A stretch of DNA of 8,128 bases, taken from Chloroflexota bacterium. Its GTDB lineage: Bacteria; Chloroflexota; Anaerolineae; Promineifilales; Promineifilaceae. Location: NCBI GenBank assembly GCA_008501785.1, contig QQUD01000661.1, positions 1-8,128 of the forward strand, in the 5' to 3' direction. Of the stretch, positions 1,411-8,128 are shown in pieces. The position numbers and the translations under genes are program-made. Every line of letters starts with the position of its first letter. Positions within the stretch are counted from its first letter, which is position 1. Under the pieces are notes generated by a model, which was not told the DNA's origin, searched no databases, and saw only the letters and a program-made list of their open reading frames with translations.

Positions 1411-3180
1411 ATGTTTAGACTGCGTCGCGCTGCTGTGGGCGGAACGATTGGTTTACTGATCGGCATCCTTTTTACTCTTTTTGTCAACTTTGTATCGAAC
1501 ACAAACGTGTCGTTAGCCACACTAGGGGGGCCTTTGTGGGTATTAATTGCAGCATTTCTCATTGGGTTATGGTATGCGGTTTTATTTGAACCACATCGTG
1601 ATAATTATGCTGAAAATGTATCTACCGGATTAGTTCTGGGCATTATTCTTTGGTTTGTGTGGGCGATTAGTTTGCAACCGTTTCTGGTAGGTAAAGGGGA
1701 AAGCTGGCAGGCGGTTGAGGCGATAACGGCCGTTCCCAAACTAATCACCTACATCTTGCAAGGTGGCCTGGTTGGATTCGTATACGGATTGCTTTTTGGA
1801 TGGTTGGCAAAGTCCTTAAAGCTGCATTCGACTGAAATTTTAGGTCCTCCAGAGATTACCAAGCGTGTTGTGATTATCGGCGGCGGTTATGCGGGCGTGT
1901 CGGCTGCACAAGTTTTGGAGAAAGAGCTGGCTAAACATCCTGCTATTGGCGTGACTTTAGTTAGTCAAAACAACTTTCTTATTCATACCCCCATGCTTTC
2001 CGAGGTATCAGCCAGCGCTGTCAATGCACAGAACATCAGCCCTTCTTTGCGCAGCTTCTTCAAAAATGTTCAAGTTATCCAAAGTGATATTGCCAACATA
2101 GATTTAGATAAAAGAATCGTGCATTTACGTGCTGATACGCGCTCAACTAAAAAAGATTTACACTTTGATCATCTTATCTTAACTGCGGGCAGCGTTCCCA
2201 ACTTTTTTGGAAACAAAAATATTGAGAAGGAAGCCTTTTCCTTTAAATCACTCGAAGATGCCACCATTATTCGCAACCAAATCATTGATATGTTTGAGCG
2301 GGCAGATTTGGAACCCAATTCAGAAAAAAGAAAACAAATGTTGACCTTTGTGGTGGCTGGCGGTGGATTTGCCGGGGTGGAATTGCTGGGCGGGATGAAC
2401 GATTTTGCCCGAGGTATCTGTTTTTATTACCCAAATGTGAACCCGGCAGATGTACGAACTGTTTTGGTGCATTCTCGTGAACGAATTTTGCCAGAACTGA
2501 GTGAGGCGCTTGGTGAGTTTGCCAAAGAAAAGCTGATTGAACGCGGTGTTGAGTTTCAATTAGGTGTGCGGGTGACGGATGCTCGACCTGGATTTGTGGT
2601 GACAGGTGAGCAGGAAATACCGAGCAATACGTTTATTTGGACCGCAGGCAACCGCCCCAGCCATGTCCTCAGCTTGTTGGACTTGCCATTAACCAAGCGG
2701 GGGCAGTTAGAAGTGAATACGGCGTTGCAGGTGTTGCATACCGACAATATTTGGGCAGCCGGTGATTGTGCGCAAGTGCCTGATTTGACGACAGGTAAAT
2801 TTGCGCCACCAACAGCCCAACATGCGCTGCGAGAAGGCAAGGTTGCTGGCTACAATGTGGCAGCGGCGCTGACAGGGAAGCCATTAAAGACATTCAAATT
2901 TAAGACATTGGGCAGTTTGGCTGCGCTAGGCCACCAATTGGCTGTAGCCGAGGTGTTTGGTCGCCGCTTCTCTGGCTTTTTTGCGTGGCTGTTGTGGCGC
3001 GGCATTTATTTGTCTAAATTGCCGACACTGCAAAAACAGGTGCGTGTGCTGCTTGATTGGATTTTGGATGTGTTTTTTCCACCTGATATTGTGCAAACGA
3101 TTAATTTTAGTCAAAAAGAACGGGAACAACAGCGGGTGATGACTGAGGGAAACGGCCGTTCTCCAGAGGTACAAGCATGA
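1411..3180 (+). CDS. Type II NADH dehydrogenase-like flavoprotein with N-terminal four-helix membrane module
   Basis: A 589-residue protein: a membrane module (about 1-135) fused to a complete NDH-2-type pyridine nucleotide-disulfide oxidoreductase (about 150-565). NDH-2 enzymes pass electrons from NADH through FAD to membrane quinone without pumping protons. The FAD-binding motif GGGYAG is at 157-162, preceded by VVII; the second dinucleotide fold GGGFAG is at 317-322 and ends in Glu324, consistent with NADH rather than NADPH. The second FAD motif WAAGDCAQ is at 448-455, followed by the quinone-side segment APPTAQHA (465-472). The C-terminal part (TLGSLAALGH at 499-508, then a Trp/Tyr-rich amphipathic segment) is typical of NDH-2 membrane attachment. 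Predicted helices of the added module lie near 9-29, 41-59, 70-90 and 110-132. Usual NDH-2 proteins are about 400-450 residues, so the N-terminal module is extra. The stop overlaps the next start by ATGA. The quinone-reductase activity is inferred from family. Confidence 0.88.
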   Translation: MFRLRRAAVGGTIGLLIGILFTLFVNFVSNTNVSLATLGGPLWVLIAAFLIGLWYAVLFEPHRDNYAENVSTGLVLGIILWFVWAISLQPFLVGKGESWQAVEAITAVPKLITYILQGGLVGFVYGLLFGWLAKSLKLHSTEILGPPEITKRVVIIGGGYAGVSAAQVLEKELAKHPAIGVTLVSQNNFLIHTPMLSEVSASAVNAQNISPSLRSFFKNVQVIQSDIANIDLDKRIVHLRADTRSTKKDLHFDHLILTAGSVPNFFGNKNIEKEAFSFKSLEDATIIRNQIIDMFERADLEPNSEKRKQMLTFVVAGGGFAGVELLGGMNDFARGICFYYPNVNPADVRTVLVHSRERILPELSEALGEFAKEKLIERGVEFQLGVRVTDARPGFVVTGEQEIPSNTFIWTAGNRPSHVLSLLDLPLTKRGQLEVNTALQVLHTDNIWAAGDCAQVPDLTTGKFAPPTAQHALREGKVAGYNVAAALTGKPLKTFKFKTLGSLAALGHQLAVAEVFGRRFSGFFAWLLWRGIYLSKLPTLQKQVRVLLDWILDVFFPPDIVQTINFSQKEREQQRVMTEGNGRSPEVQA

Positions 3181-4643
3181 AGAATAAAACCGTTGCCTTA
3201 CCGTACAGGCTCCTGGCTGGTGCATTAGCTGGATTAATTGGCGGTCTTCTTTTTATGCTGACCGTGAGTATCTTGTTTAGTTTTGTGATTCATTTAGTTA
3301 TTAGCGTTGGACTTGGTTTGATTTTTGCAGCTTTTGTCGGTCCCAAATTGCATACCGGCGGTGCCAGCCTCGTTTGGGGTGAAGCGTATGGTCTGATTTG
3401 GTGGTTGGTTGGCTATTTAACATTTATCCCATTAGCCTTTGGTGAAGGTTTGTATTGGCAACCCGAGCAAATTAAAGCACTTTTTCCATTTCTGCTGGGA
3501 CAGGTCATCGCGTTTGGGGCGGCTTTAGGGTTGGGTTATTATTGTTTTATAAAGATATTCCAGCGCTTTGTACCAGTTATTCACGTTCAAGAATCCAATC
3601 CAGATGCACCAAAAGGACAAGACATTGTTGCGCCTCGAGTGCAAAGCTTGCTGATTGGTGGAATTGGCGGTTTGTTGGGTGGTTGGATATTTTTGTTAGG
3701 CATTCAGCGAGCGGCTTTTTTTCCATTGGTTGCTGGATTGCTTGGTTCAGACTCATTGGTTTTGGGGCAGTTTTTGCATTATGTGATTGCGGTGACGATT
3801 GGGTTGGGGTTTGGGCTTTTGTTTCATCGAGATATTCGCAGTACGGGGGCGGCGATTGTGTGGGGGATGACGTATGGGCTTTCGTGGTGGATGCTGGGAC
3901 CGATGACGTTACGGCCGTTACTCTCTGGCACCCTTCCCGATTGGTCATTAGCCGCCGCTCAAGCCACCTTTACGCCGCTCATTTCACACATGCTTTATGG
4001 AGCGCTGGTTGGCCTTTTTTATGCGTTGGCGACAAATTTATGGAATGCACTTTTTGTTGACTCTGATCCGCTGAATCGAACGCGAGAAAGCGCGGGGAGT
4101 CGCAGCTTGCGTGGTTTGTTGATGGGGCAAGGGGCTGGTGTGATTGGTGGGCTGCTTTTTACGATTGTGATGGTGGCGACGAATAGCCTGCCACGGGTGG
4201 CTAGTTTGGTGGGGGGAAATACGGCCGTTTTTGGATTCATCGTCCACCTAATCATTGCCATCATCATTGGCAGCACCTATGGCTTATTCTTTCAAAATGC
4301 AGCCTACAGTTATGGGTCTGGTTTGGGATGGGGGTTGCTGTATGGGTTACTTTGGTGGTTTCTCGGCCCTGGCACCTTGTTTTTTATATTGCTGCGCCAA
4401 CCAGTTGATTGGTCGTTAGCCAGCACCATTTCTCGCTACCCTGCATTGGTTGGCCATTTGCTTTATGGGATGGGATTAGGTCTAGGGTTTCAATATTTTA
4501 TGCATCGTTATGATACCCATTCCAAACAGCATGGCGGTCATTTACATCAACATCGAACCGCAGGCACACCTGCTTCCGCACTGTGGGCAGTGACTTTATT
4601 AATTGCCATTTTATTGCCATTATTATTAGGGACAACAACTTGA
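3177..4643 (+). CDS. Polytopic membrane protein with three internal repeats, partner of NDH-2 gene
   Basis: A 488-residue, very hydrophobic protein of a family I cannot name. It has three homologous units at about 10-124, 156-288 and 312-442. Each contains a Gly-rich helix, a helix with GLG(F/Y)GLLF-like sequence, a WG..YGL.WW.LGP motif (near 67, 229 and 385), and a closing helix with LLYG..LG; units 2 and 3 also share DWSLA (255-259, 411-415). Unit 1 is shorter and more divergent. Polar linkers at about 130-155 and 290-310 separate the units. After unit 3 comes a His-rich segment (six His among residues 443-459), then a final membrane helix at about 466-484. It starts inside the stop of the NDH-2 gene (ATGA, 3177-3180), so translation is probably coupled. 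The same module appears at the N-terminus of that NDH-2. A role as membrane partner or scaffold is inferred; transport cannot be excluded. Confidence 0.8.
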   Translation: MKNKTVALPYRLLAGALAGLIGGLLFMLTVSILFSFVIHLVISVGLGLIFAAFVGPKLHTGGASLVWGEAYGLIWWLVGYLTFIPLAFGEGLYWQPEQIKALFPFLLGQVIAFGAALGLGYYCFIKIFQRFVPVIHVQESNPDAPKGQDIVAPRVQSLLIGGIGGLLGGWIFLLGIQRAAFFPLVAGLLGSDSLVLGQFLHYVIAVTIGLGFGLLFHRDIRSTGAAIVWGMTYGLSWWMLGPMTLRPLLSGTLPDWSLAAAQATFTPLISHMLYGALVGLFYALATNLWNALFVDSDPLNRTRESAGSRSLRGLLMGQGAGVIGGLLFTIVMVATNSLPRVASLVGGNTAVFGFIVHLIIAIIIGSTYGLFFQNAAYSYGSGLGWGLLYGLLWWFLGPGTLFFILLRQPVDWSLASTISRYPALVGHLLYGMGLGLGFQYFMHRYDTHSKQHGGHLHQHRTAGTPASALWAVTLLIAILLPLLLGTTT

Positions 4644-7054: not shown

Positions 7055-7273
7055 ATGTCCTGGGATGAGCAAGATGACACGATCACATACAAAGTTGTCG
7101 TTAATCACGAAGAGCAATACTCAATCTGGCCTGCTGATCGAGAAATGCCGTTTGGTTGGAAGGCTGTCGGCAAAGAGGGCAGTAAACAAGAATGCCTGGA
7201 TTACATCGAAGAAGTATGGACCGATATGCGTCCTCTCAGCCTGCGCAAGAAGATGGAGGATGATCAGAAATAG
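7055..7273 (+). CDS. MbtH-like protein (NRPS adenylation-domain partner)
   Basis: A 72-residue protein with nearly the whole MbtH signature: N17, E20-Q21, S23, W25-P26, P32, G34-W35, ECLDYIE at 46-52, then WTDMRPLSL at 55-63. MbtH proteins bind the adenylation domains of nonribosomal peptide synthetases and are needed for their folding or activity. GGAG at 7044-7047 lies 7 nt before the ATG, and the length is normal for the family. It lies alone: the upstream unit ends at a terminator and the downstream gene is convergent. No synthetase gene is in the window, so it either serves a remote NRPS or a nearby cluster outside the window. Family assignment is very sure, the partner is unknown. Confidence 0.95.
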
Positions 7274-7314: not shown

Positions 7315-8128
7315 TTACATGAGGTCGGAAGCAAACTGCTCCGAAAATGGTTCCGCTCATCAGTACCAGGATTCGCTAAGGGTGGGGATGGCAACGGCCG
7401 TTTGCTTCAAAACAGGCGCACCTCCCCATCTGTCTCGTTCATACTCTGACAAAAAGCTGATAACTGTCTGCCAAATACGATTAAACAAAGTCAGTCGTGA
7501 TTCGTTTGCATTTTGGCTGGCTTTAACAAGTTTGAAAATTGCTTCGTACAGGGTGTCTACTGCCGATTCAGGATGTGTCCAGGGGTAAACAAGCGCGGCT
7601 TCATCAAACGGCCGTATTAACTCCCTCACCTCTTTCAAATCCAACAAACGAGAACTTGCCGGAATGAGCAGCCGAATCGCATATTGAATCGGATTAATCG
7701 CCTCTACCAAATCCAATTCTGCCATCAACGCCAGGAATTCAGCATACCCTTGTGCGGTTGTCCATGGGGTAAATGTGACAAAGGTTGGTGTGAGCGGCAG
7801 CCTTACTTCGCGCATCAGGTGCACAACGCGGATAAAATCAGCTTGGGTGTGGCCTTTTTTCAAAATGGCAAGCGTATGATCATCTACTGCTTCTACAGCA
7901 CTAACTACAAATGTGCAGCCCGTATCGCGCAAAACTGGCAGCATGTTTTCATGTTTCAGCAAATGCTCAATTTTGATGGTTACATCGTAAGTGAGGGTGG
8001 GAAACTCGGCGTGGAGTGCCTGCACGAGCGGCAAGGCATGACCAGGCCCGTTTAAAAAATCAGGGTCGCCAAAGGTGATATGCTCAGCTCCGGCGTCAAC
8101 TTGCTGTCGAATGTCCGCCAGCACAATT
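7315..8128 (-). CDS. Radical SAM protein of CUAEP/CCAEP-tail type, 3' part, predicted selenoprotein ending UUAEP
   Basis: The gene enters from the right edge; its N-terminal part, with the CxxxCxxC iron-sulfur cluster motif, lies outside. The visible 270 codons begin within the SAM-barrel: HITFGDPDFLNGPGHA, the strand TYDVTIKIEHLL, and GCTFVVSAVEAVDD all fit radical SAM barrels of the CUAEP/CCAEP-tail family as I remember it. A nominal stop TGA (7360-7362) follows Trp-Tyr. Reading on in frame gives a second TGA (7357-7359), then Ala-Glu-Pro and ten residues (FSEQFASDLM) to TAA at 7315-7317. The family carries Cys-Sec or Cys-Cys before AEP, so both TGA codons probably encode selenocysteine. 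TGA is a normal stop at two other genes here, which argues against a reassigned code. The GTG at 8122-8124 is not a real start, since the frame stays open upstream. The reaction is unknown. The gene converges on the MbtH-like gene, 41 nt apart. Confidence 0.85.
7325..7344 (-). promoter_or_regulatory. Candidate bacterial SECIS stem-loop
   Basis: On the minus strand UCGGAGCA (7337-7344) pairs with UGC-U-UCCGA (7325-7333) around a GUU loop (7334-7336): eight base pairs with one bulged U. The stem starts 12 nt and the loop 20 nt after the second TGA, within the general range for bacterial SECIS elements, and the loop begins with G as the common model requires. In E. coli fdhF the bulged U is on the 5' arm; here it is on the 3' arm. 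Folded by hand. Confidence 0.6.
7357..7362 (-). other. Two adjacent in-frame TGA codons, predicted Sec-Sec
   Basis: On the minus strand the codons read TGG TAC TGA TGA GCG GAA CCA, that is Trp-Tyr-Sec-Sec-Ala-Glu-Pro. The known tail motif of this family is CUAEP or CCAEP, so both TGA codons fall exactly on the two Cys/Sec positions. Tandem Sec would require SelA, SelB, SelC and SelD elsewhere in the genome. Confidence 0.75.

Follow-up and report, generated by a model that had tools for sequence, protein, structure and literature searches.

The locus and its double-TGA reading frame

The window analysed here, the whole stretch of 8,128 nucleotides, holds the 3' part of a radical SAM gene on its minus strand. 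The frame enters from beyond position 8127, reaches the residues ...PTLSESWY and, in the open reading frame, continues as SESWY-TGA-TGA-AEPFSEQFASDLM-TAA (Table 1). The original prediction had described this arrangement, two in-frame TGA codons followed by Ala-Glu-Pro and by TAA 13 residues on, and its coordinates agree with ours. With TGA read as selenocysteine (Sec, U), the C-terminus of the protein is UU-AEP, that is, a Cys/Sec pair followed by AEP as in the CUAEP/CCAEP family, with UU as the pair rather than CU or CC.

Table 1. Features of the window, with the basis of each assignment
Feature	Positions	Strand	Remarks
Radical SAM selenoprotein gene, 3' part	7315..8127	-	270 residues + TAA with TGA read as Sec; 5' end outside the window
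Trp-Tyr, end of the protein in standard gene calling	7363..7368	-	96 of 120 listed database matches stop here
First TGA (U1)	7360..7362	-	Cys or TGA at the aligned position of homologues
Second TGA (U2)	7357..7359	-	Cys or TGA at the aligned position of homologues
AEPFSEQFASDLM tail, 13 residues, opening with Ala-Glu-Pro	7318..7356	-	In-frame conservation
Candidate bacterial SECIS hairpin, UCGGAGCA-GUU-UGC(U)UCCGA	7325..7344	-	Apical loop GUU at 7336-7334
TAA stop	7315..7317	-	Open reading frame
MbtH-like protein gene	7055-7270	+	PF03621, 88.9 bits; convergent to the radical SAM gene
NDH-2-like FAD oxidoreductase gene	1411-3180	+	Has an extra N-terminal stretch that is apparently membrane-bound (sequence reading)
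Gene for a very hydrophobic protein	3177-4643	+	No Pfam match over cut-off; overlaps the NDH-2-like gene by 4 bases

MbtH-like proteins are normally NRPS helpers; no NRPS gene was seen among the window genes scanned. The palindrome ACGGCCGT is strongly over-represented: ACGGCCGTW has 18 strand-wise matches in the 8128 bases, whereas dinucleotide shuffles predict 0.13 (sites at, for example, 995, 1726, 3152, 3911, 4221, 6694, 7024, 7394, and 7608). HIP1-type octamers of cyanobacteria show a similar over-representation.

The assignment to the radical SAM CUAEP/CCAEP family, also part of the original prediction, is borne out by NCBIfam profile NF040546, whose curated cut-off is 500 bits. The window piece, with TGA read as Sec, reaches 355.6 bits in an alignment to positions 204-467 of the 468 in the profile, below the cut-off because only the 3' part of the gene lies within the window. 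Full-length relatives with the same pair exceed it (L001, 631; L002, 616.5; L006, 625.3 bits), as do a full-length relative with a Sec-Cys pair (L003, 615.2 bits) and the best other database match, P0002, which stops at Trp-Tyr (592.5 bits). The radical SAM CX3CX2C motif, which in the window gene falls beyond the window end, is invariant in all 49 aligned relatives. With Cys in place of each TGA, six cysteines are likewise invariant in the 49 full-length rows, namely those of the cluster, the two of the pair and another (175, 179, 182, 269, 455, and 456 in L001 numbering). The DxHxxG motif, a cobalamin motif, is absent from the first 150 residues in all 49 rows. A predicted structure model has a confidence of 77 in the region of the pair, falling to 54 at the end.

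Most public records of these proteins lack the tail. Among the best 120 of 7,982 matches in a protein search, 96, including the window's own protein, stop precisely at Trp-Tyr, 21 extend one Cys further, and three carry a CC tail. It was expected from the DNA that standard gene calling would truncate the protein after Trp-Tyr, and this is what the listed matches display. With the window's own protein set aside, 95 of the 119 listed relatives end at Trp-Tyr and so lose the tail, which means that many public proteins of the family are cut short; protein records alone do not tell UU from UC.

Relatives and the order of events

The relatives were collected from DNA. Of 587 confirmed stretches in a scan of representative genomes, the best 80 were taken as loci; their selection was by similarity to tail-less or whole proteins and thus independent of the tail. 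In 79 of them a pair of Cys/TGA codons directly follows the match, and in the 80th (L071) a CC pair lies further on. Together with the window and the tail-pattern loci of class and family samples, minus three chance matches (L101, L106, and L146) and seven duplicates, they make 126 tails, distributed as CU 101, CC 14, UC 6, and UU 5. The pattern-scan counts reveal only tails that fit the pattern, a limit which the 80 similarity-chosen loci escape. The UU rows are the window, L001, L002, L006, and L007. The last four, from records titled Anaerolineae, Anaerolineaceae or Chloroflexi, share 58-75% identity with the window protein. UU and UC tails are all of one length, with 13 codons following the pair.

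Of the 52 genomes scanned in the family of G001, 25 have the tail pattern and ten have TGA-TGN (4 UU and 6 UC). A class sample of 396 genomes yielded TGA-TGN tails only in six of these ten genomes, plus a match in G191 that was rejected as an independent UC tail, the DNA upstream being without a radical SAM frame. In the phylum of G008 (Acidobacteriota), TGA-TGN tails were found in none of the 396 genomes sampled. The class and family scans also gave 36 loci with a further kind of tail, Trp-Phe-Cys-Sec-AEP (L109-L130, L137, L139-L141, L143, and L147-L155). Nine of them were placed on the tree, where they join L107 and L108 in a separate, deeply branching group; it may differ in function from the Trp-Tyr group.

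Other expectations of the original prediction could be followed in these relatives. Both TGA codons sit at positions where the family has Cys or Sec, since homologues align Cys or TGA at each, and the AEP tail, whose loss from homologues had been named as counter-evidence, is kept in them. TGA-TGA occurs in four other, independent genomes (those of L001, L002, L006, and L007), all Chloroflexota, and is therefore no sequencing error. Judged by this recurrence, the combination of TGA-TGA with AEP and a 13-residue tail is not due to chance. By its pattern of substitution, the tail is under purifying selection: over its 13 codons in the 11 UU and UC rows, pN is 0.093 and pS 0.352 (pN/pS 0.26), and for eight of its residues (A, E, P, Q, F, A, S, and D) pN is 0.010 vs a pS of 0.380.

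Two trees that leave out the tail were computed, from 88 and 46 of the 126 rows. The UU and UC rows together form one clade, with SH-aLRT 92 in a first tree and 94/82 in a careful tree. In the latter, L006 (UU) branches first and the inner ten rows are held together at 99/97. The window groups with L001 and L002 (100/99), and L007 (UU) with the six UC rows (99/92), which are themselves a clade (99/96). The weakest node inside the UU and UC clade is the one joining L006 to the other ten rows, 94/82. Position 1 changes once on both trees, which put a single gain of Sec at position 1 and, inside the clade, a single loss of Sec at position 2. Because UU and UC are one clade and their CU relatives lie outside it, CU to UU to UC is the simplest history, and UU looks like its intermediate.

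The gene neighbourhood gave no function, no gene common to all UU sequences being seen among the neighbours. L001 and L002 are close kin and have most neighbours in common. Three UC loci (L003, L004, and L005) share a cation-efflux-like gene; like the other neighbour names, this one was assigned by reading the sequence rather than by a family search. Of 81 sequences examined (the 80 loci and the window, with unequal flanks), 36 have an ATP-grasp-like gene on the stretch that carries the radical SAM gene (for example, L008:2160-3531). Of these 36, 26 are in records titled Acidobacteriota or its subgroups and none is a UU sequence; the gene may be a clue to the pathway of the enzyme.

A hairpin in the tail and the selenocysteine machinery

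The tail of the window gene can fold into a 20-nt hairpin of -7.9 kcal/mol, whose apical loop is 23 nt downstream of U1 and 20 nt downstream of U2. Neither this hairpin nor the UC sister form, with the evolutionary path that it implies, was part of the original prediction. The bSECIS model, as given in a 2026 review, has a loop of 3-9 nt with G in its first two places, a spacing from UGA to loop of 16-37 nt and an MFE of -7.5 kcal/mol or lower (PMC13188914). Against these published values, the window hairpin has the loop GUU, both spacings within range and a sufficient energy. In UC genes the hairpin is 23 nt from the sole Sec codon and in CU genes 20 nt, or one less in a second register. At least five pairs and a loop G[G/U]U are found in 107 of 111 UGA-bearing tails vs 3 of 12 CC tails (Fisher 1e-8), a count that omits two CC rows with too short a tail (L024 and L060) and a CU row with undetermined bases (L015). 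The UGA rows that fail are L049, L052, L107, and L108, and the CC rows that pass are L047, L073, and L077.

Retention of the pairs was compared with a null of synonymous recoding with each gene's own codon usage, either register being allowed in the data and in the null. Of six pairs, UU tails keep 6.00 (null 3.33), UC tails 5.83 (3.44), CU tails with Trp-Tyr 5.46 (3.69), CU tails with Trp-Phe 5.49 (3.94), and CC tails 3.83 (3.08). The hairpin is thus also kept in the Trp-Phe tails. The recount with either register was made because part of the family pairs one base over: in a single register, all six pairs are present in 20 of 60 CU Trp-Tyr rows, and with either register in 30 of 61. In a covariation count, pairing is best in the register given in Table 1 (79.4% of cells, with 24 double changes vs 7.4 when shuffled). 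The covariation score is slightly higher for a register slid by two, 0.254 vs 0.229, which is attributed to the second register in part of the family.

Corrected for kinship, the loss of the hairpin in CC lineages comes down to five pairs on supported branches; a mean of 3.6 of them point the expected way and none the other, and the result is not significant (p 0.125). The window RNA downstream of the UGAs is not unusually stable (z -0.16). The corresponding 36-nt stretch folds above -7.5 kcal/mol, the limit of the bSECIS model, in five of ten UU and UC relatives (L002, -7.1; L003, -7.3; L004, -6.6; L005, -7.3; and L132, -7.3 kcal/mol), and in two of the ten (L001 and L134) its lowest-energy fold is another one.

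The selenocysteine machinery was searched for in 20 genomes that we chose from those of the 80 loci, 16 with UGA and four with CC; seven of the 20 carry UU or UC. SelB is over its cut-off in all 16 UGA genomes, two of the four CC genomes and two of 14 controls. The corresponding figures are 15, two and one for SelA, and 13, two and two for SelD (over cut-off). SelD itself carries an in-frame TGA in the UU carriers G001, G002, and G006. Since 19 of the 20 carriers but also five of the 14 controls exceed the gathering score of the tRNA-Sec model, tRNA-Sec was counted at 59 bits or more, a limit set after the scores had been seen. At this limit it is present in 12 of 16 UGA and two of four CC genomes, including all four UU and all three UC genomes, where it scores 67-72 bits. 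Four CU genomes (G009, G011, G015, and G016) have no tRNA-Sec match above 50 bits. The original prediction also looked to selenocysteine machinery in the genome, and in the UU relatives this held in part: SelA, SelB, SelD, and tRNA-Sec are complete in G001, G002, and G006, whereas in G007 SelB and tRNA-Sec are present but SelA has no match and SelD none over cut-off, a gap that may reflect an incomplete MAG.

Interpretation and comparison with known systems

From these sequence comparisons, we put at roughly four in five the probability that the gene product is a CUAEP/CCAEP-family radical SAM protein with a Sec-Sec pair, served by one shared SECIS and arisen in the order CU to UU to UC. Both successive UGA codons most likely insert Sec. 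Mechanistically, SelB would bring Sec-tRNA to two successive UGA codons, with the one hairpin in the tail serving both. An ancestral Cys-Sec tail would have gained a second Sec at the first position, giving Sec-Sec, and one daughter clade would then have swapped the second Sec for Cys, giving Sec-Cys. Sec would in this way shift by one residue through a double-Sec intermediate that is still extant. That the UU genes are such a survivor, with two UGAs read through a single SECIS and the hairpin unmoved throughout the shift from CU to UC, we regard as probable. In the enzyme, the pair could work in or close to the radical SAM active site, whether in redox chemistry, as a hydrogen donor or as a soft-atom ligand, and Sec at either position might suffice; both suggestions are tentative. 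The two Sec might form a diselenide of very low potential, as the original prediction proposed.

The doubled UGA could be read in other ways. The first UGA might mostly terminate, leaving a protein that for the most part stops at Trp-Tyr and a smaller, selenium-dependent fraction with the Sec-Sec tail that regulates the enzyme. Two consecutive UGAs should indeed reduce the amount of full-length product in Sec decoding. However, selection on the tail and retention of the hairpin argue against such a minor role, as do the Cys-Cys relatives, which make the tail without any choice, and we consider it unlikely. The records ending at Trp-Tyr (96 of the 120 listed) reflect gene calling and lend partial readthrough no support. 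It is much less probable still that the TGA pair marks decay or an error, with the tail lost and the AEP frame a relic. UU is uncommon, as decay might lead one to expect (it occurs in 4 of the 52 genomes scanned in the family of G001, 25 of which show the tail pattern), but four other sequences as distant as 58% in identity share TGA-TGA, and the tail has kept its frame and length at the low pN/pS given above. An altered code, with UGA an ordinary sense codon and no selenium involved, would explain two in-frame TGAs within one gene, but it is hardly credible. TGA ends two of the seven other window genes checked and also the same gene in four of six UC relatives, and three of the four UU relatives have SelA, SelB, SelD, and tRNA-Sec.

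A different question is what the pair does. By analogy with the related enzyme ArsL, it might hold arsenic or another metalloid substrate rather than act in redox, a reading compatible with Sec-Sec being real. In six proteins the second-best NCBIfam match is NF040542 (ArsL, the arsinothricin radical SAM enzyme, rSAM_RCCLKC), at 272.6-295.6 bits. These matches in six relatives are below the curated cut-off of 450 bits, however, and the window part reaches 154.4 bits; no arsenic gene was recognised beside the UU loci when the gene lists were read by eye, and ArsL was over its cut-off in none of the 197 genomes searched. We regard a metalloid-holding pair as possible but doubtful.

The Sec-Sec reading gains interest from the relatives, since all four kinds of pair (CC, CU, UC, and UU) on one enzyme make two open questions testable, namely, how far one bacterial SECIS serves UGAs at different distances, and how the position of selenium in a vicinal pair affects catalysis. 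In four of the six UC genes (L003, L004, L005, and L134), TGA is used both as the presumed Sec codon and as the stop. The latter is an ordinary TGA 13 codons past the pair, and the Sec reading is therefore local; genes with both uses of TGA offer a test, provided by nature, of the range over which the hairpin acts.

Compared with solved radical SAM structures (AprD4, OxsB, TsrM, and MgmA), the family has an identity of 15-18%. An adjacent Sec pair or UGA pair in bacteria was not found in the literature searched, subscription papers being mostly outside its reach. In eukaryotes, an algal PDI_e selenoprotein with a GUGUU motif was called in 2020 the first selenoprotein with two consecutive Sec (PMC7539508). 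It resembles the present case in having two Sec side by side, but is a protein-disulfide-isomerase-like protein, unrelated to radical SAM enzymes. For prokaryotes, the 2026 review states 119 selenoprotein families and subfamilies; its table, which gives motifs and not whole sequences, has no motif with adjacent Sec and no entry for NF040546 (PMC13188914). UxxU and CU proteins in that table, such as the UxxU metal-binding NF041115 and MbdU NF045648, have two Sec per protein or a CU pair; unlike the UU tail, none of the motifs listed for them has adjacent Sec (PMC13188914, Table 1). The closest known system is NF040546 itself. The full-length UU relatives belong to this family, and they and the window gene have its tail of Trp-Tyr, pair and AEP, Sec at position 2 being the commonest form. 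Whereas the name of NF040546 covers CU and CC only, position 1 is here presumably also Sec, and in the sister clade position 1 alone.
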